This document shows, in pieces, positions 2,870 to 11,517 of a stretch of 11,567 bases of DNA. Where the stretch lies: contig VGRU01000107.1 of the NCBI GenBank assembly GCA_016875255.1, positions 1 to 11,567 of the forward strand, given 5' to 3'. Each line of letters begins with the position of its first letter. The first letter of the stretch is position 1. Source of the DNA: Deltaproteobacteria bacterium (GTDB lineage Bacteria > Desulfobacterota > BSN033 > UBA1163). The notes beneath the pieces were generated by a model. It was not told where the DNA came from, made no database searches, and saw only the letters and a list, made by a program, of their open reading frames with translations. The translations under genes were made by a program, and so were the position numbers.

Positions 2870-2906
2870 TGGTTTCTCTCCTTAATGTTGAAAATAATGG
2901 TCATTG

Positions 2907-3098
2907 GTGAAAAGGTTAGGGTAACGACGCCCGTTTCGTCAAGAGGTTACGTCTTAGGAAAACCAACGTTTGTCGTTGTCGAAGCTCGTATCCCTGCCCG
3001 CCGGTAGGCAGGGATGCTCGATCATAGAAACTCGATACTCGTCGAGCTTCGTTTACCGAGCTTCTTGCTTCGATACAAGCGTCGTCACCCATAAACGT
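2907..3098. repeat. MITE-like intergenic element, copy A (one terminal arm plus core)
   Basis: This fills most of the 255-base gap between the acyl-CoA ligase stop and the dehydratase start. The terminal arm (about 2907-2953) reads GTGAAAAGGTTAGGG, then CGCCCGTTTCGTC, then GGTTACGTC. The core at 2961-3080 is the reverse complement of 10084-10203 with 117 of 120 bases identical. Inside the core, 2990-3015 is a 9-bp perfect stem (ATCCCTGCC/GGCAGGGAT). Homology to the other copy fades after about 3098, and no second terminal arm is visible, so this copy looks truncated on the ligase side. No open reading frame of note lies within. Confidence 0.85.
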
Positions 3099-3124
3099 TT
3101 GTGTATTAATTCAAACTGGCCATT

Positions 3125-4798
3125 TTAAGGGTTTCTAAAAGCCCTCCTTAAAAATTTCCCGGTGGCGGTTTTGGGCACCTCTTTAACAAACTCTACCTCC
3201 CGTGGATACTTATAGGCAGCCATTCTCTCTTTGCAGAAGGAAATAATCTCCTCATGGGTCACCTTTCCCTCGAAACCCTCTTTCAGGGCAACAAAGGCTT
3301 TGACCGTTTCGCCCCGGTAGGGATCAGGAACCCCGACCACGGCCACTTCCCGAACAGCAGAATGGAGATAGATCGTATCCTCCACCTCTCTTGGCCAGAC
3401 TTTAAATCCGGAGGCGATGATCATGTCCTTCTTTCTGTCCAGGAGGTAGACCCATCCTTTATCATCCATTGTGCCCACATCTCCGGTAAAAAGCCAGCCT
3501 TTGCGTATGGCATGAGCGGTTTCTTCAGGTTTGTTCCAGTACCCTGGAATAATCCCCGGCCCTCTGATGGCCAGCTCTCCCACTTCTCCAGGAGGAAGCT
3601 CTTTGTCCGGATCGCTCAGGTCCATTATCTTCGCCTCATGGCTGGGAATGGGAACCCCAATAGCAATGGCTCCGGTGGAGGGGTCCACAGGCGCCCTTAA
3701 GCCAAGCGGGACCAGTGTGGCAGGTGATGTGCTTTCGGTAAGGCCGTAAACATTGTGGATGTAGGTTCCGGTCAGGTTCTCAAATCGTTCCACGACAGCA
3801 GGAATCACAGGGGCTCCGCCGCTGTAAACTTTTCGGAAGGATGAAAAATCATACTTTCCAATTTCCGGGTCGTTCATCATAGCGATGAAGACCGTAATGG
3901 CTCCGATCGTGCAGGTGGCCTTCCATTTTCCGATCATCTGAAATGTGGTCATGGGATCGAAGCGGTAAAAAAGGATGAGCGGAGTTCCGGAAGCGATGCA
4001 GGCTCCAATGTGACCGACCATCCCCGTCACATGAAAGAAAGGAGCCACTGCTAACATCGTATCCGAGGGGGTCAATTTCCAGCAGTGGCGATAGACTTCG
4101 GAGTTGAAGACGACATTCCCATGCGTGTTCATGGCGCCCTTTGGAGGGCCGGTGGTCCCGGATGTGTAGGTGAGGTAGGCGACATCCTCTTGCGAAAGAT
4201 TGACCTCCGGAGGTTGTTCCCCTCGATAACGTCCAAGAAGAGTGACGAAGTCCAGCGTTTCTAACACCTTTACTTTTTCAATTCCCTTTAGAATCGAAGG
4301 AAGCGGGCTTGCAGGGTCGAAAAAATCGAGTTCTGAAGTAGTGATCACTTGTTCAATGCCCGACTCTTTAACTGCTTTTTGGACCGGTTCTCCATAGAGG
4401 GAGGCCATTGAGACGAGCAGCCGGACCGACGCATCCCGGAAATAGTAGGTGAGTTCCTTTTCCTTATACATTGGATTTAATGGAACAATGATCCCGCCAG
4501 CCTTCCAGATGCCGTACTGGGCAATGATGAATTGGGGAATATTCTGAAGATAGAGAGCCACCCGGTCGCCCTTCTTGATTCCAAGGTATATCAGGCCGCA
4601 TGCAAAGGCATCGCTCATCCTTTCCAGTTCCGCATAAGAGATGATCTTGTCAAAATAATAGAGGGCAGGGCTTTGGCCGTGGTTTTGAAACGTCTTCCGA
4701 AGGTGGTCGAGAGCATTTGTAGCTTCAGGGGTTAAATCGGGCGAATAATCATTAGGGTAGAGGGAAAGCCATCGCCTTGATTGATCTTGCGATTCCAT
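3125..4798 (-). CDS. AMP-forming acyl-CoA synthetase (fatty-acid-CoA ligase family)
   Basis: This enzyme activates a carboxylic acid with ATP and CoA through an acyl-AMP intermediate. Numbered from the preferred start (557 residues), the signatures are the ATP loop YTSGTTGPPKG at 211-221, YGLTES at 351-356, FTGD at 437-440, the hinge region with DRKKDMI and GFKVWPREVE at about 454-473, and the catalytic lysine in TATGKFLRR (K548). The ATG at 4798 has AGGAGA 6 bases upstream; an in-frame ATG at 4834 lies inside the preceding gene and has no such site, so the shorter form is preferred. It starts 20 bases after the small cysteine protein, indicating one transcript. The motifs place it among medium/long-chain fatty acid ligases, but substrate length or type cannot be fixed. 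Confidence 0.93.
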   Translation of the reverse strand: MESQDQSRRWLSLYPNDYSPDLTPEATNALDHLRKTFQNHGQSPALYYFDKIISYAELERMSDAFACGLIYLGIKKGDRVALYLQNIPQFIIAQYGIWKAGGIIVPLNPMYKEKELTYYFRDASVRLLVSMASLYGEPVQKAVKESGIEQVITTSELDFFDPASPLPSILKGIEKVKVLETLDFVTLLGRYRGEQPPEVNLSQEDVAYLTYTSGTTGPPKGAMNTHGNVVFNSEVYRHCWKLTPSDTMLAVAPFFHVTGMVGHIGACIASGTPLILFYRFDPMTTFQMIGKWKATCTIGAITVFIAMMNDPEIGKYDFSSFRKVYSGGAPVIPAVVERFENLTGTYIHNVYGLTESTSPATLVPLGLRAPVDPSTGAIAIGVPIPSHEAKIMDLSDPDKELPPGEVGELAIRGPGIIPGYWNKPEETAHAIRKGWLFTGDVGTMDDKGWVYLLDRKKDMIIASGFKVWPREVEDTIYLHSAVREVAVVGVPDPYRGETVKAFVALKEGFEGKVTHEEIISFCKERMAAYKYPREVEFVKEVPKTATGKFLRRAFRNP

Positions 4799-4818
4799 CG
4801 GGAATCTCCTTTGACGGT

Positions 4819-5076
4819 TTACGATTTCAACCAACCGATCAGTGCCTCGAAATCATTTTCTCCTGTGATTGAATAGTGAGGAACGGTTTGATTAACATCC
4901 TGTGCTGCACAGGCCCTGTGGCATCCACTCAGAAAAACCATCCTATCGATATCCGGTTCGTCATGGCGAAGAAAAAGGAAATGGTCTTTAAGTTGGGATT
5001 GGACGCGCTGAACCATTTCTACTCTCTCATAGGCGGGATTGCATCCTCCGCAGTATTTGACGCCGATCCTTTTCAT
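4819..5076 (-). CDS. Small four-cysteine protein with CGGCNP motif, function unknown
   Basis: An 85-residue protein with two cysteine pairs: C9-x2-C12 in KYCGGCNPAYERV and C52-x3-C56 in LSGCHRACA. Between them is a predicted alpha/beta stretch, and the tail is short and hydrophobic. The C-x2-C plus C-x3-C layout recalls the thioredoxin-like [2Fe-2S] ferredoxins (NuoE type uses C-x4-C and C-x3-C), so a redox or metal site is a reasonable guess. I recall similar CGGCNP-containing small ORFs in anaerobes but no established function. The start is fixed by the closeness of the first Cys pair to the N-terminus, although no good ribosome-binding site is visible. It sits 20 bases ahead of the acyl-CoA ligase and is probably co-transcribed with it. 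Not a thioredoxin: the CxxC context is wrong. Confidence 0.7.
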   Translation of the reverse strand: MKRIGVKYCGGCNPAYERVEMVQRVQSQLKDHFLFLRHDEPDIDRMVFLSGCHRACAAQDVNQTVPHYSITGENDFEALIGWLKS

Positions 5077-5111
5077 TAAACGTTATTCGAAAAATAAGGG
5101 TTTCGTCTAAC

Positions 5112-5226
5112 GGCAACGGTAACGATGCCCGTATCGTCTATAAAAGGCTACGTCTCTCGTATTTAATTTTTTTACCGTAACCGTTACCTCTCATCGAAAC
5201 GGGCTTCGTAACCGTAACCGGTAACC
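5112..5226. repeat. MITE-like intergenic element, copy B (two arms, no long core)
   Basis: This lies in the 177-base gap between the SDR stop and the small cysteine gene. The left arm (5112-5153) has GGTAACGATGCCCGTATCG and then GGCTACGTC. The right arm read on the - strand (5226-5175) has GGTTACGAAGCCCGTTTCG and then AGGTAACGG. The two arms match at about 20 of the first 25 positions as inverted repeats, separated by only about 21 AT-rich bases. The 120-bp core of copies A and C is absent. The arms belong to the same family as those bounding the other two elements, so this is best read as a short, internally deleted member able to fold into one long hairpin. Confidence 0.75.
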
Positions 5227-5253
5227 TATGCCCTCTACGGTTTGCTGAGGCAA

Positions 5254-6012
5254 TTACCAGACCGTCCAGCCTCCATCGATATAGATGGTCTGACCGGTGA
5301 TGAAGTCCGAGGCCGGAGAGGCAAGGAAGATGACCGTCCCTTCCAGTTCCGGAAGATAGCCCCATCGGCCCATCGGTGTTCTCTCATTGATAAAGTTGAA
5401 TCTTGCCGGATCATTCCGGATCTGTTTGACCATATCGGTCTCAAAATAGGTCGGACCGACCGCATTGACCCGGACGCCCTGTTTAGCCCATTCGAGCGCC
5501 ATGACCTTTGTCATCTGTTCAACGCCGCCCTTGGAGGAGGCATAGGCCAACTGATTCGCAAGTCCTACTTTTCCAAAAATGGAACTCATATTGATTACCT
5601 TGCCGTATCCTCGCTCAAGCATCTGAGGGACAATGGCCTGGGCAACGAGAAAATAGCCCTTGAGGTTGGTGTTGATAATCAAGTCCCACTGTTCTTCCGG
5701 GTATTCGAGGACTGGGACCCGATAGTTGGTGCCGGCGTTATTGACAAGTATATCGACACAGCCAAAATGGTTCAGTATCTGCTCAACGGCCCTTTTAACC
5801 TTTTCTTTAGAGAGCACATCAAGCTCAAACCCACGGGACTTTCGGCCCAGTGTCTGGATATCCGCCGCCACCCGTTTCAGGTCCGAAGGGTTCCGGCCAC
5901 AAACCGCAATATCCGCCCCGGCTTTGGCAAGAGCTTTCGCTGCAGTTTCTCCCAGTCCCCGGGTGCTGCCGGTGACCATTGCTACTTTGCCGGTTAAGTC
6001 GAAGAGATCCAT
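5254..6012 (-). CDS. SDR family NAD(P)-dependent oxidoreductase
   Basis: A 252-residue classical short-chain dehydrogenase/reductase. The cofactor loop TGSTRGLG is at 14-21, NNAG at 91-94, and the catalytic tetrad is N115, S144, Y157 and K161 (YASSK). The C-terminal IDGGWTVW is typical of FabG/gluconate-5-dehydrogenase-like members. R40 after the second strand (CGRN) suggests NADP(H) preference. AGGAG lies 8 bases before the ATG. It is likely to oxidise or reduce a hydroxyl/keto group; its position upstream of an acyl-CoA ligase and a hydroxyacyl-CoA dehydratase family gene fits hydroxyacyl metabolism, but SDR substrates cannot be told from sequence alone. A repeat element separates it from the next gene, and a palindromic spacer separates it from enolase. 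Confidence 0.93.
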   Translation of the reverse strand: MDLFDLTGKVAMVTGSTRGLGETAAKALAKAGADIAVCGRNPSDLKRVAADIQTLGRKSRGFELDVLSKEKVKRAVEQILNHFGCVDILVNNAGTNYRVPVLEYPEEQWDLIINTNLKGYFLVAQAIVPQMLERGYGKVINMSSIFGKVGLANQLAYASSKGGVEQMTKVMALEWAKQGVRVNAVGPTYFETDMVKQIRNDPARFNFINERTPMGRWGYLPELEGTVIFLASPASDFITGQTIYIDGGWTVW

Positions 6013-6028
6013 GATAGGCTCCTGATAA

Positions 6029-6112
6029 AGTTCTGAGTTCGGGGTTAAGAGTTCGGAAAATGGAATCCCAAACTTATTTTTTGTTCCCTAACTCAGAACT
6101 CATTACTCCGAA
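6029..6112. repeat. Word-built imperfect palindrome between eno and the SDR gene
   Basis: The gap downstream of enolase carries AGTTCTGAGTTCGGG at 6029-6043 and its inverted partner CCCTAACTCAGAACT at 6086-6100, 14 of 15 bases matching. A further GAGTTCGG (6050-6056) and CTCCGAACT (6105-6113) lie flanking. The repeated word is GTTCTGAGTTC/GTTCGGAGT. On the - strand this forms a stem after the eno stop and could dampen read-through, but it has no U-tract directly after the stem, so a terminator call is not made. Confidence 0.6.
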
Positions 6113-7402
<1,290 letters not shown>

Positions 7403-7420
7403 TCATCCTCCCTTTAATGA

Positions 7421-7960
7421 TCAATGATGACTTCTTTGGTTCAGAATGCGCGTGCCCACATAGATGTAATGGATTCCGGAGAGAACGGTCAGAAAGGTCG
7501 TTGCGTAAATGGCGATGGGGGTCAGTTGCTTGAAGAAGGAATCATGTCCCGCCAGCAAGGCCAGAAGGACGGTCAATATCTGAAAGGTGGTGGTCATCTT
7601 GCTGATGAAACTCGGATGAATTGGGGGAGGCTGACTGATGAGCATGATCACCAGAAGGCCCAATAGAATGATGACATCACGGGTGATGACGATGACCGAG
7701 AGCCAGCTTGGAAGAACCTCTACGATAGCAAGGGCGAGGTAAGCGGAGATGATAAGGAGCTTATCGGCAATGGGATCGAGATAGGCTCCTAACTCAGTCT
7801 TCTGGTGGGTGAGGCGCGCCAATAGGCCATCGAGCCCATCCGTAATTCCGGCGATGGCAAAAGTGACCAAAGCCCACCCGAAGGAATGGTTGATGATAAA
7901 GATGACAAAGGCGGGAATCAAAAGGACCCTGAAGACGGTTAAGGTATTGGGCAGGTTCAT
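7421..7960 (-). CDS. pgsA: CDP-diacylglycerol-glycerol-3-phosphate 3-phosphatidyltransferase
   Basis: This integral membrane enzyme makes phosphatidylglycerol-phosphate, the first committed step to phosphatidylglycerol and cardiolipin. The protein has 179 residues, normal for PgsA. The start MNLPNTLTVFRVLLIP is characteristic. The CDP-alcohol phosphotransferase motif D-G-x2-A-R-x8-G-x3-D-x3-D is complete: D44, G45, A48, R49, G58, D62 and D66, with the extra D41 before it. Hydrophobic segments at about 10-24, 28-40, 68-82, 87-110, 124-138 and 147-168 fit six membrane spans. The ribosome-binding site is weak. It lies 89 bases after dnaB, and that gap contains a repeat-like palindrome. Related CDP-alcohol enzymes are possible, but length and N-terminus favour PgsA. 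Confidence 0.93.
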   Translation of the reverse strand: MNLPNTLTVFRVLLIPAFVIFIINHSFGWALVTFAIAGITDGLDGLLARLTHQKTELGAYLDPIADKLLIISAYLALAIVEVLPSWLSVIVITRDVIILLGLLVIMLISQPPPIHPSFISKMTTTFQILTVLLALLAGHDSFFKQLTPIAIYATTFLTVLSGIHYIYVGTRILNQRSHH

Positions 7961-7978
7961 CGTAAACTATCAACATTT

Positions 7979-8036
7979 TAGATTGCAGATTTCAGATTTC
8001 GGAGTTTTTATTCCGCATTCCGCAATCCGAATTCCA
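7979..8036. repeat. Word-built imperfect palindrome between dnaB and pgsA
   Basis: The gap holds GATTGCAGATTTCAGATTTCG on the left and, read on the other strand, GGATTGCGGAATGCGGAAT on the right, around a short T-rich centre. Matches are partial (GATTGC plus scattered bases). It resembles in style the other palindromic spacers in this window. No open reading frame or terminator is evident. Confidence 0.4.
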
Positions 8037-8049
8037 AAATAGGTTGGGG

Positions 8050-9408
8050 TCATTCGTAGAAATCTCCGGTTTCGCCTTTATAGAGGTCTTTAAAGGTGGT
8101 GAATTTGTCCATAAAGGCCAGATCGACCTTGCCGATCGGTCCGTTTCGCTGTTTTCCGATGATGAGCTCTGCTTTGCCCTGATTCTCCTCCTGCCGGTTA
8201 TAAACCTCTTCCCGGAAAAGAAAGAGGATGACATCGGCATCCTGTTCGATTGCCCCGGATTCCCGGAGATCCGAAAGCTGGGGCCTGTTGCCGTGCCTCT
8301 CCTCGGTTTTCCGGCTGAGCTGGGAGACAGCGATGACCGGGATATTGAGTTCCTTGGCCAGGGCCTTGAGGGAGCGGGAGATTTCGGAGATCTCCTGTTG
8401 ACGGCTCTCCACTCTCGATCTCCCCTTCATCAGTTGAAGGTAGTCGATGACGAGCATACCCAGACGATGATCGGCTTTGAGACGCCGCGCCTTTGCCCTC
8501 AATTCAAGGACGGAGAGTGCGGCCGAATCGTCGATGAAGATGGGCGCCTCGTAAAGCGTTCCTGCGGCAAGCGTCAGCTTGGTCCAGTCGCTCTCGTGGA
8601 GAAAACCTGTTCGGAGCTTATGCCCTTCCACCTGTGATTGAGAGCAGAGCATCCGGATGACGAGTTGTTCCTTCGACATCTCAAGGGAGAAGATGGCGAT
8701 GGGGGTCTTTCGTTCTACGGCCGCATACTGGGCCATGTTGAGGCAGAGAGCGGTTTTGCCCATGCTGGGCCTTCCTGCAACGATGATCAGATCCGAGGGT
8801 TGAAACCCTGCCGTCATCTTGTCAAGCTCTTTAAACCCCGAAGGGATGCCGGTGATGAGCTCCTTCTTCTCATAAAGTTTTGAAATGACATCCAGGCTGG
8901 TTTTGACAACTTCACGGATGGAGTAGAAGGAGGGCCTCACCCTTCTTTCGGAGATTTCGAAAATGGACTTCTCCGCCTCGTCAAGAAAGTTCTCCACATC
9001 GCCACGATCCTGATAACTCTGCGTGATGATCTCCGTGGAGGTTTCGATCAACTTACGGAGGACCGCCTTCTCCCTGACGATCCTGGCATAGTATTCGATA
9101 TTGGCCGCAGTGGGAACCGCGTCAATCAGAGAAGCTAAATAGGAAGCCCCTCCGATGGCATCGAGTTGGTCTTTATTGCGCAACTCGTTGGTTATGGTGA
9201 TCAGGTCGGCAGGTTCGTCCCGTTCGGAAAGATTGATCAGCGCGGCGTAAATCTTTCGATGTCCATCCCGGTAGAAATCATCGGGGGCGAGGATTTCCAT
9301 CACCTTATTGATGGCCTCATTTTCAATAAGGATGCCTCCCAGGACAGACTGCTCCGCCTCGAGGTTTTGAGGCGGGATCTTATGGGAGGATGGCTCCGTC
9401 CCTTCCAT
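8050..9408 (-). CDS. dnaB: Replicative DNA helicase DnaB
   Basis: This hexameric 5'-3' helicase unwinds the replication fork and recruits primase. With the ATG at 9408 it has 452 residues. The N-terminal domain begins IPPQNLEAEQSVLGG, the usual DnaB opening; the RecA-like C-terminal domain has Walker A GRPSMGKT (212-219), FSLEMS, Walker B LVIDYLQLM (319-327), VSQLSRK and the arginine-finger region DLRESGAIEQDAD. No intein or insertion is present. The frame extends upstream to a TTG at 9501, which would add 31 residues. The ATG is preferred because GGGGTGA stands just before it, while the TTG has no visible site and the added residues are unlike DnaB N-termini. The rplI-dnaB order is conserved in many bacteria. 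Confidence 0.95.
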   Translation of the reverse strand: MEGTEPSSHKIPPQNLEAEQSVLGGILIENEAINKVMEILAPDDFYRDGHRKIYAALINLSERDEPADLITITNELRNKDQLDAIGGASYLASLIDAVPTAANIEYYARIVREKAVLRKLIETSTEIITQSYQDRGDVENFLDEAEKSIFEISERRVRPSFYSIREVVKTSLDVISKLYEKKELITGIPSGFKELDKMTAGFQPSDLIIVAGRPSMGKTALCLNMAQYAAVERKTPIAIFSLEMSKEQLVIRMLCSQSQVEGHKLRTGFLHESDWTKLTLAAGTLYEAPIFIDDSAALSVLELRAKARRLKADHRLGMLVIDYLQLMKGRSRVESRQQEISEISRSLKALAKELNIPVIAVSQLSRKTEERHGNRPQLSDLRESGAIEQDADVILFLFREEVYNRQEENQGKAELIIGKQRNGPIGKVDLAFMDKFTTFKDLYKGETGDFYE

Positions 9409-9505
9409 GTTCACCCCATGAGATGGCTCCGCACCTTGCAGCGGAGAAGAAAATAATTTTTGCTTTTTTGAGCGAGCATCCGATTCATGCTCCGTGTTCA
9501 ACGTT

Positions 9506-9528
9506 CCGTTAAAAAAACTTTCTAACGG
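9506..9528 (-). other. Small hairpin between rplI and dnaB
   Basis: CCGTTA at 9506-9511 and TAACGG at 9523-9528 form a 6-bp stem around an 11-base A/T-rich loop immediately after the rplI stop. It lacks a trailing U-run and is too weak for a confident terminator. It may be an mRNA processing or spacing element. Confidence 0.3.
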
Positions 9529-9531
9529 GGT

Positions 9532-9975
9532 TCACTCCTGGACGACCCATACCTTGAGATGGGCAATGACTTCCGGCTGGAGTTTAATCGCAACGGTGTG
9601 CATTCCCAGATTCTTGATCGGCTCTTCGAGAACAATTTTCTTCCGATCCACCTCCATCCCGTTTTCCTTGAGAAAGGCTTCAATCTCCATGGAGGTGACG
9701 GAGCCAAAAAGCTTTCCGCTCTCCCCTACCGTCTTAGCAAAGGTGCAAGAGAGGTTTTCAATCTCCTGAGCCATCTTCACCGCATCTTTTTTCATCTTCC
9801 CCAGACGGTGCTGAACCAGCGCCTTCTCATGCTGCAGGGCTTTGAGGTTCTTTTCCGTTGCAAAGACAGCCTTCTTCTTCGGGATGAGAAAGTTTCTGCC
9901 ATATCCATCCGAGACCTTCACCTGATCCCCGACCTTTCCCAATGAGGGGATATCTTCCAATAGAATGACTTGCAT
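9532..9975 (-). CDS. rplI: 50S ribosomal protein L9
   Basis: L9 binds 23S rRNA at the base of the L1 stalk and helps maintain the reading frame. The protein is 147 residues, normal length. The N-terminal domain is textbook: VILLEDIPSLGKVGDQVKVS, then DGYGRNFLIPKKKA. A long connecting helix (about 41-75) leads to the C-terminal domain with KLFGSVTSMEI and HTVAIKLQPEV. GGAGGTCATC precedes the ATG. Downstream is dnaB after a short gap. Upstream, toward rpsR, lies an unusually long 331-base spacer filled by a repeat element, so rplI may depend on read-through from rpsR or on a promoter within or beside that element. Confidence 0.97.
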   Translation of the reverse strand: MQVILLEDIPSLGKVGDQVKVSDGYGRNFLIPKKKAVFATEKNLKALQHEKALVQHRLGKMKKDAVKMAQEIENLSCTFAKTVGESGKLFGSVTSMEIEAFLKENGMEVDRKKIVLEEPIKNLGMHTVAIKLQPEVIAHLKVWVVQE

Positions 9976-9996
9976 GATGACCTCCGATAAATCTTT

Positions 9997-10266
9997 GTGA
10001 ATAGGTTAGGGTTAGGCGGCCCGTATCGTTTAACGTCAATCGGTTAAGGTCACCACCAAAGAAAATGGGTTTACGGTGACGAAGCTGGTATCGAAGCAAG
10101 AAGCTCGGAAAACGAAGCTCGACGAGTATCGAGTTTCTATGATCGAGCATCCCTGCCTACCGGCGGGCAGGGATACGAGCATCGACAACGACAAACGTTG
10201 GTTCCACCAAGAGTCATTTGGTGAAAGACGTAACCCCTCAACGAAATGGGCATCTTAACCTTGACC
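9997..10266. repeat. MITE-like intergenic element, copy C (two arms plus core)
   Basis: This is the most complete copy, occupying the 331-base gap between rpsR and rplI. The left arm (9997-10036) reads GTGAATAGGTTAGGG, then GGCCCGTATCG, then AACGTC. The right arm read on the - strand (10266-10227) has GGTCAAGGTTAAG, GCCCATTTCG and GGGGTTACGTC. The core at 10084-10203 matches the reverse complement of 2961-3080 at 117 of 120 bases. It includes the 9-bp stem at 10149-10174 (ATCCCTGCC/GGCAGGGAT). Between core and right arm is an additional small hairpin, CACCAA/TTGGTG at 10205-10223, absent from copy A. No protein-coding capacity is evident. The remaining 40 bases of the gap, up to the rpsR stop, show nothing recognisable. 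Confidence 0.85.
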
Positions 10267-10306
10267 GAACAAAGAACCCTTTATTGTCTAACAAAACACT
10301 TTTCCT

Positions 10307-11427: not shown

Positions 11428-11429
11428 AA

Positions 11430-11517
11430 ATGATCAATGAAAAATGGTCAATTAGCAATGATCAATTGGGAGCAATTCCTGCCCATTGAACATTGACCAT
11501 TGATAATTGGTCATTGG
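11430..11517. repeat. Word-built palindrome upstream of rpsF (ATTGACC/GGTCAAT type)
   Basis: The left part (11430-11470) reiterates AATGATCAATG, AATGGTCAATT and AATGATCAATT. The right part (11483-11517) reiterates the complementary words CATTGAACATTGACC and ATTGATAATTGGTCATTGG. Together they can pair over some 35 positions around a short GC-containing centre. It follows the stop of the preceding gene by about 10 bases on the - strand and may form a large hairpin after that stop. It has no coding capacity. Confidence 0.65.

Follow-up and report, generated by a model that had tools for sequence, protein, structure and literature searches.

Organization of the repeats in the window

The window is the whole analysed stretch of 11,567 nucleotides of deltaproteobacterial DNA. 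Three related repeats (copies A, B, and C) sit in three gaps between genes, copy C between the S18 and L9 genes, and these elements contain no gene. The repeats have a nested build: a core lies between arms, and a 20-bp palindrome lies inside arms and cores. Copy A consists of a single outer arm (2907-2953, plus strand) and an inner core repeat (2952-3110, minus strand), with the palindrome at 2993-3012. Copy B is a short element (5089-5238, plus strand) with inverted arms at 5112-5153 and 5175-5226, and its left end is GAAAAATAAGGG. Copy C has two arms flanking the inner core, all on the plus strand. Its left outer arm and linker (9997-10062) match the orthologous site of G001, the nearest genome compared, at 65 of 66 bases; the core follows at 10063-10212, with the palindrome at 10152-10171. 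The right part (10213-10292) comprises a linker, the outer arm (10227-10266), and a probable outer end, which was placed by likeness to other copies; here 10213-10266 is identical to G001 at 54 of 54 bases. The largest feature is a 138-bp inverted repeat with 94% identity between 2952-3089 and 10075-10212, which is the inner core.

The first-pass annotation had described five related arms of a MITE-like family, and the positions, block order, and orientation of the arms were all as it stated. The inner core repeat was missing from this picture: the arms of copy C enclose a second repeat, so that the whole is a composite, and copy A is a one-armed composite. A profile was built from 30 copies of G001 aligned with copy B of the window, and the copy B row was then removed. 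It recovered all five arms, scoring 132 bits for copy B (5094-5238), 34 bits for copy A (2902-3000), 24 bits for the left arm of copy C (9988-10053), and 15 bits for its right arm (10223-10269). The best score among 100 dinucleotide-shuffled windows was 4.0 bits, which rules out that the arms are alike by chance. The arms of copies B and C are mutually inverted, and so are those of 34 aligned copies. The left and right arms of one copy are similar but consistently distinct (mostly CCCGTATCG on the left and CCCGTTTCG on the right). Longer copies at other sites reach out to TTAGAAAATAA on the left; on the right they run through TATTTTCATGGTTCG and about 30 bp further, past the matching stretch, in two alternative tails. 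The outer ends of the elements are of a AGAAAATAA type and a TTTTCATGGTTCG type, and no clean inverted repeat is evident at the very tips.

Gene conversion between copies A and C

Copy C was aligned with copy C of G001, the loci L002 and L003, copy A of the window, and the core at the copy A site of G005. The mosaic pattern shows gene conversion between copies A and C, which face in opposite directions and are separated by 7 kb. The tract of copy A sequence in copy C spans approximately 10091-10181; copy C of G001 has no 20-mer. The direction was most likely from A to C, and the centre of copy C was apparently overwritten. The conversion shows that repeats of this kind recombine over a distance of 7 kb even when inverted, which can make the age of any one copy harder to read.

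Family size and distribution

Genome searches bore out that the arms belong to a non-coding family, dispersed in many copies through related genomes; its members have inverted arms and are imperfectly palindromic. The best 40 candidates per genome at most were scored (14 in the survey of 59 relatives), so that all copy counts are lower bounds. The annotation would have been contradicted by a lack of further copies in the genome, and G001 has at least 44 matches to copy B and at least 50 to copy C. Most of the latter fall within the core, which is a high-copy repeat. With at most 14 best candidates scored per genome, copy B was found in 15 of the 59 relatives, all of one family: nine of ten members of the genus, six of seven others of the family, and none of 42 beyond it. 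At least 96 stretches of the family occur in 12 MAG assemblies. The common core of the family is about 115 bp; long copies reach about 175-190 bp, and composites about 270 bp. Only 17 of 211 profile matches, counted on both strands, lie in an open frame of at least 100 codons, versus 461 of 547 random stretches. The blastn searches gave no link to phages (window 2890-3110) or to plasmids (a full-length copy B relative from L109). The letters of the arms and of the 20-mer were absent from the open-access full texts searched, other journals lying outside that search.

Occupancy of orthologous gaps and target duplication

The presence of the element is polymorphic between relatives, and empty sites in orthologous gaps were found as the annotation had suggested looking for. 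Copy B is absent from the orthologous gap in 7/7 genomes, and the copy A arm is absent at 5/5 orthologous loci. At the copy C site, the arms are present in three of eight relatives (G001, G002, and G006) and absent in five; G002 and G006 have the arms without the inner core between them. The orthologous site of copy A on contig C102 of G005 holds a bare core without the arm. An element always at the same place, the other outcome named as contrary to mobility, is therefore not what these gaps show. One filled/empty pair (L125/L174) has flanks 92-93% identical in otherwise collinear DNA, where an entire copy was either gained or cleanly lost. An element inside an element was also found (L131/L058 compared with L138).

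The evidence for target duplications is weak. In L125/L174, the two ends carry the near-repeat CCGATTATGT / CCGATTACTT, which points to a duplication of about 9 bp, and L138/L116 points to one of about 7 bp; the other filled/empty pairs have no readable duplication. An initial test on 17 copies (18 hand-picked copies minus one, with two end types mixed) gave a best z of 4.2, where shuffling set the 95% level at 3.3. Because it was confounded by end type, it was replaced by a permutation test within end types, which gave p values of 0.03 (19 copies) and 0.12 (12 copies), corrected over offsets. Three of the 34 copies were set aside for it: two had doubtful right ends, and one was an ortholog of another copy. 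A single good pair with weak statistics does not amount to a clear duplication. In many loci, letters like ATTGC/ATTAC are found at either end alike; target preference or element sequence may therefore account for some of the resemblance between the ends.

Search for a transposase

A transposase gene bounded by the same arms, which had been proposed as a search target, was not found. None lies between the arms of 172 inward arm pairs, all shorter than 400 bp, and arms on both sides were seen at none of the 69 transposase loci examined (69 of 147 matches to four Pfam families, with about 1.5 kb of flank in incomplete genomes). Y1 transposase genes are common, with 102 matches in eight genomes; the 30 loci examined among them include none bracketed by arms. 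The proposal of a mobile element moved in trans is therefore upheld in part: the polymorphic occupancy agrees with it, but the movement in trans is left with no arm-bounded transposase, weak duplication, and unclean outer ends.

The 20-bp palindrome

The cores of copies A and C each contain a third repeat, a near-perfect palindrome of 20 bp (CCTGCCTRCCGGYAGGCAGG and close variants). In copy A it is an exact 20-bp indel relative to contig C102 of G005, with flanks TATC|GATG and no duplication. This exact, duplication-free insert is the most unusual part of the system. Pattern matching identified it in both cores and gave 54 matches in all. Some places are doubled in this figure where matches overlap, the loci likewise overlap one another, and most of them were chosen for carrying the element. 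The hosts belong to several repeat families, and identical insert positions recur across many copies. The pattern is not enriched near Y1 genes (two matches in 30 loci). Compared with the definition of REPs (20-40 bp, high-copy, intergenic, with a GTAG or CGTC tag), the size and copy number fit, and no such tag was seen by eye in its contexts. It is possible, though doubtful, that the 20-mer is itself mobile: it would enter other palindromic repeats exactly and without duplication, often at a readable C|G step and by a mechanism so far without an enzyme, and would afterwards be carried along by its hosts as a passenger. If so, it would be among the smallest mobile DNA units. The exact filled/empty pair offers a concrete system for studying how palindromes too small to look like a transposon multiply.

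Origin of the family

Copies A, B, and C probably belong (probability about 0.75) to an old, diversified MITE-like family that was once spread by a trans-acting transposase. Its elements, about 115 to 270 bp long and non-coding, have two similar but distinct inverted arms, and in this sample are limited to one family of uncultured Thermodesulfobacteriota. A transposase may have acted in trans on the paired ends, and this enzyme may since have been lost or be rare. An alternative is that Y1 (RAYT-type) transposases, working on single-stranded DNA and leaving no target duplication, spread the repeats as REP-like palindromes. This would account for the hairpin structure, the weak duplication signal, and the duplication-free 20-bp insert, and Y1 genes are abundant in these genomes. 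However, the examined Y1 loci are neither bracketed by arms nor enriched for the 20-mer, and for the large element L125/L174 points to a duplication of about 9 bp; this origin is unlikely.

A fixed regulatory or structural element tied to particular operons, such as a transcript hairpin, terminator, or attenuator, is very improbable. The three copies do fold better than their shuffles (z of -5.8, -8.1, and -4.1), and the gap between the S18 and L9 genes that holds copy C has arms in 3/8 relatives. Yet the gaps in relatives are usually without the element, so gap occupancy rules out a fixed one. A structured RNA is likewise ruled out, with compensatory change at 0 of 12 predicted pairs in 34 copies and no Rfam match for the element. 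There is also little chance that recombination alone replaced transposition, with gene conversion, unequal exchange, and slippage of palindromes during replication rearranging old copies. The conversion between A and C, the element inside an element, and the recurrent insert positions agree with such reshuffling, but conversion places no copies in new, non-homologous gaps, and in L125/L174 an entire copy was gained or cleanly lost within DNA that is otherwise collinear. The MITE-like reading adds a clade-specific family for uncultured bacteria, whose occupancy could be used to mark lineages and which accounts in part for species-to-species differences in the orthologous gaps of these genomes.

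Comparison with known systems

The family looks new, and of an already known type of small mobile DNA. In the passages of PMC10969869 on Chunjie, a MITE of Geobacter uraniireducens, the full length is 235 bp, and copies of 178-235 bp are mostly intergenic, with many partial copies and one inside an operon. Both are non-coding inverted-repeat elements, and the host belongs to a relative phylum branch. By description, Chunjie has conserved terminal repeats and direct repeats (PMC10969869), whereas the ends and duplications here are less settled. QMITE2 of Coxiella burnetii, as outlined in the same source, is about 190 bp at full length with many truncated REP-like copies (PMC10969869). It also hosts another mobile element, but its guest is the insertion sequence IS1111, whereas the guests here are non-coding palindromes, and its clade differs from that of the present family. 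Halothiobacillus is the host genus of CGTC-1. REPs inside larger palindromes are described for GTAG-15 of Anabaena variabilis and CGTC-1 of H. neapolitanus, and the CGTC REPs are presented there as having no associated transposase gene (PMC3733652). As described, these resemble the present case in that small palindromes are lodged in larger ones; unlike them, the 20-bp palindrome here shows no GTAG/CGTC tag by eye and is hosted by several repeat families.

Arms, anatomy and distribution

The arm-bearing repeat family is real, nested, and has been gained and lost over the history of these lineages. The five related arms that the first-pass annotation described as the ends of a MITE-like family are present in the window as claimed, in three intergenic copies: A (~2902-3110), B (5089-5238), and C (9997-10292). 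An arm profile was made from 30 copies of G001, the closest genome compared (20% of the sampled 31-letter words in common with the window); these were aligned with copy B, and the B row was then taken out. The profile recovered all of the arms in the window, scoring 132 bits for B, 34 for A, 24 for C left, and 15 for C right, against a top score of 4.0 bits over 100 dinucleotide-preserving shuffles of the window.

What the family members share is an imperfect palindrome of ~115 bp, with two arms that are similar, yet differ consistently. In the fuller copies, the left end extends to TTAGAAAATAA, and the right end runs on via TATTTTCATGGTTCG to either of two tails; without an extra insert, these copies are ~175-190 bp long. 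Among the window copies, B is a short element and C a composite, in which a second repeat (the core) is enclosed by two outer arms; A joins a single arm to this core, inverted relative to C. Cores in G001 are found within B-like arms and also without such arms. A 20-bp palindrome is located in the A and C cores, and within the arms of several other copies. A short hairpin (TCCCGCG..CGCGGGA) takes the place of a few arm bases at the same spot in L059, L062, and several composites (loci L010, L015, L022, L023, and L029). Palindromes of the CCCTG..CAGGG type lie close to the GCCC block in other family copies.

Further copies are numerous. G001 contains at least 44 matches to copy B (40 of 58 candidates scored) and at least 50 to copy C (40 of 103 scored), the majority of the latter inside the inner core. 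Copy B was found in 15 of the 59 relatives searched: 9/10 of the same genus, 6/7 of other genera in the same family, and 0/42 beyond the family. An exact pattern run over genome contigs gave 96 stretches, spread over 12 MAG assemblies whose titles read Deltaproteobacteria, Thermodesulfobacteriota, Syntrophaceae, or uncultured proteobacterium. No match was found in the phages searched with window 2890-3110, or in the plasmids searched with a full-length family relative from locus L109.

Occupancy of orthologous gaps

The gaps holding A, B, and C were matched to those of relatives by their flanking genes, and each was scanned with the profiles. They often lack the family. The element is absent from gap B in 7/7 genomes, and the arm from gap A at 5/5 loci (four genomes). 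Contig C102 of G005 has a bare core in gap A; on contig C104 the gene pair recurs and the core is missing, in a bin estimated to be 5% contaminated. In gap C, G001 has arms and core, G002 and G006 have the arms but no core, and the profile scan showed no element in G004, G005, G008, G009, and G010. This pattern argues against B being a fixed element, and indicates that C is the older site. By eye, several of the family-free gaps in G002, G004, G005, G007, G008, and G010 hold palindromic repeats of other families (such as the AACCTCTAACCTCC, GGGGAGAGGG, and CTTGTTTCGGCATCTC types); thus repeats seem to have landed in these three gaps more than once.

Copies A, B, and C fold as single strands better than shuffles, as palindromes generally do. 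Compensatory changes were seen at 0/12 predicted pairs in 34 aligned copies, and Rfam gave no match within the window. The genes on either side of copy C encode S18 and L9, and dnaB is next on that strand. The family copies avoid coding frames: an open frame of at least 100 codons covers 17 of the 211 profile hits (both strands counted; 137 locus-level copies), versus 461 of 547 random stretches. To the left of copy A, three features adjoin one another: a DUF5615/PIN-like protein (93-473), a Phd/YefM-type antitoxin with no evident partner immediately downstream (548-808), and a weak match to an aspartyl protease (1018-1404). Inverted repeats not related to the arms occur in intergenic DNA at 6029-6100 and 11429-11515.

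Evidence on transposition

The clearest filled/empty pair is L125 and L174, with flank identities of 91.6 and 92.9%. The element is preceded by CCGATTATGT and followed by CCGATTACTT, and the empty site reads CCGCTTCTC, which suggests a target duplication of ~9 bp. The letters of L138 and L116 suggest one of ~7 bp; no duplication was readable in the remaining pairs displayed. ATTGC- or ATTAC-like letters are repeated at both ends of many loci. Across copies the evidence for a duplication is weak: when each of the two end types was permuted separately, p was 0.03 (19 copies) and 0.12 (12 copies) after correction over offsets. Four transposase families (PF01797, PF01609, PF00872, and PF01527) were searched in 8 genomes, giving 147 matches; none of the 69 loci inspected was bracketed by arms, and two of them, L248 and L262, are flanked by an element on a single side. 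A scan of 1.3 Mb gave 172 pairs of inward-facing arms, all <400 bp apart and bounding no transposase. Of the mobility proposed in the first-pass annotation, filled and empty sites were found, a target duplication is weakly supported, and a transposase between arms was not found among the loci inspected. The family is called MITE-like, rather than a proven MITE, because the duplication evidence is weak and no arms-bounded transposase was found.

Y1 transposase matches number 10 to 25 in each of G001, G003, G005, G007, G008, G010, and G015, and one in G002. Several in G001 are one short fragment with three TGA and one TAA; many lie near contig ends, as would be expected of an assembly-breaking multicopy repeat. 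In L103 (VGSS01000052.1), a family copy contains another non-coding palindromic element of ~130 bp (CGTAAAAAGTC ... GACTTTTTACGA), absent from L060 (contig C129 of G001). This guest is bordered by the direct repeat TCACGTAT, present once in L060, and is likely a second MITE-like family with an 8-bp target duplication.

Copies A and C and the 20-bp palindrome

The arms of copy C are identical to those of the orthologous G001 copy at 65/66 and 54/54 bases, and ~10091-10181 of copy C is copy A sequence. Window copy C lacks a 21-bp block that G001 C and two further G001 composites (L002 and L003) contain. Copies A and C have diagnostic bases and the 20-bp palindrome in common. Judged from these sequences, copy A was the likely donor in a conversion of copy C, because the site-A core of G005 C102 bears the diagnostic bases of A without the palindrome. 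This conversion accounts for the 138-bp inverted repeat, 94% identical, that A and C form.

In 14/17 genomes of this bacterial family (none in G002, G009, and G011), the 20-mer pattern CCTGCCTRCCGGYAGGCAGG is present at 1 to 60 places each; elsewhere in the phylum, 2/102 genomes carry it. The reversed control pattern gave none in the genomes scanned. The two repeats can occur separately, as G002 has many B matches but lacks the 20-mer. At site A, an exact 20-bp filled/empty pair was found, with a one-letter variant of the pattern as insert, flanks TATC|GATG, and no duplication; either a gain or a loss may lie behind it. Among the fetched loci, 29/54 hits fell inside element intervals covering 44,580 of 1,501,937 bp, although this set is biased towards element-fetched loci and counts some places twice. 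A second set comprised 55 contexts retrieved through the 20-mer; judged by eye, no fewer than 8 of them are in MITE-like family arms, and 5 belong to a single different repeat (GGATTCC|CGTTTTCACGGGAATGAC type). Flank pairing scored at least 8 in 25% of contexts versus 5% of random positions; it exceeded all of 20 shuffles in only 9/55; in many hosts, therefore, the sequence surrounding the insert is not clearly palindromic. The adjoining letters are C|G in 6/55, and at least 18 more are readable so after a one-base shift. An identical junction is repeated across many host copies; thus some inserts are passengers copied with their host.

Comparison with known repeats

Neither the arm letters nor the 20-mer letters were found in open-access full texts. 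Chunjie and QMITE2 are known MITEs (PMC10969869), and small palindromes lodged inside larger ones are reported for some REP families (PMC3733652). The arm-bearing repeats are a new family of an already known kind, and the innermost repeat is unusual.
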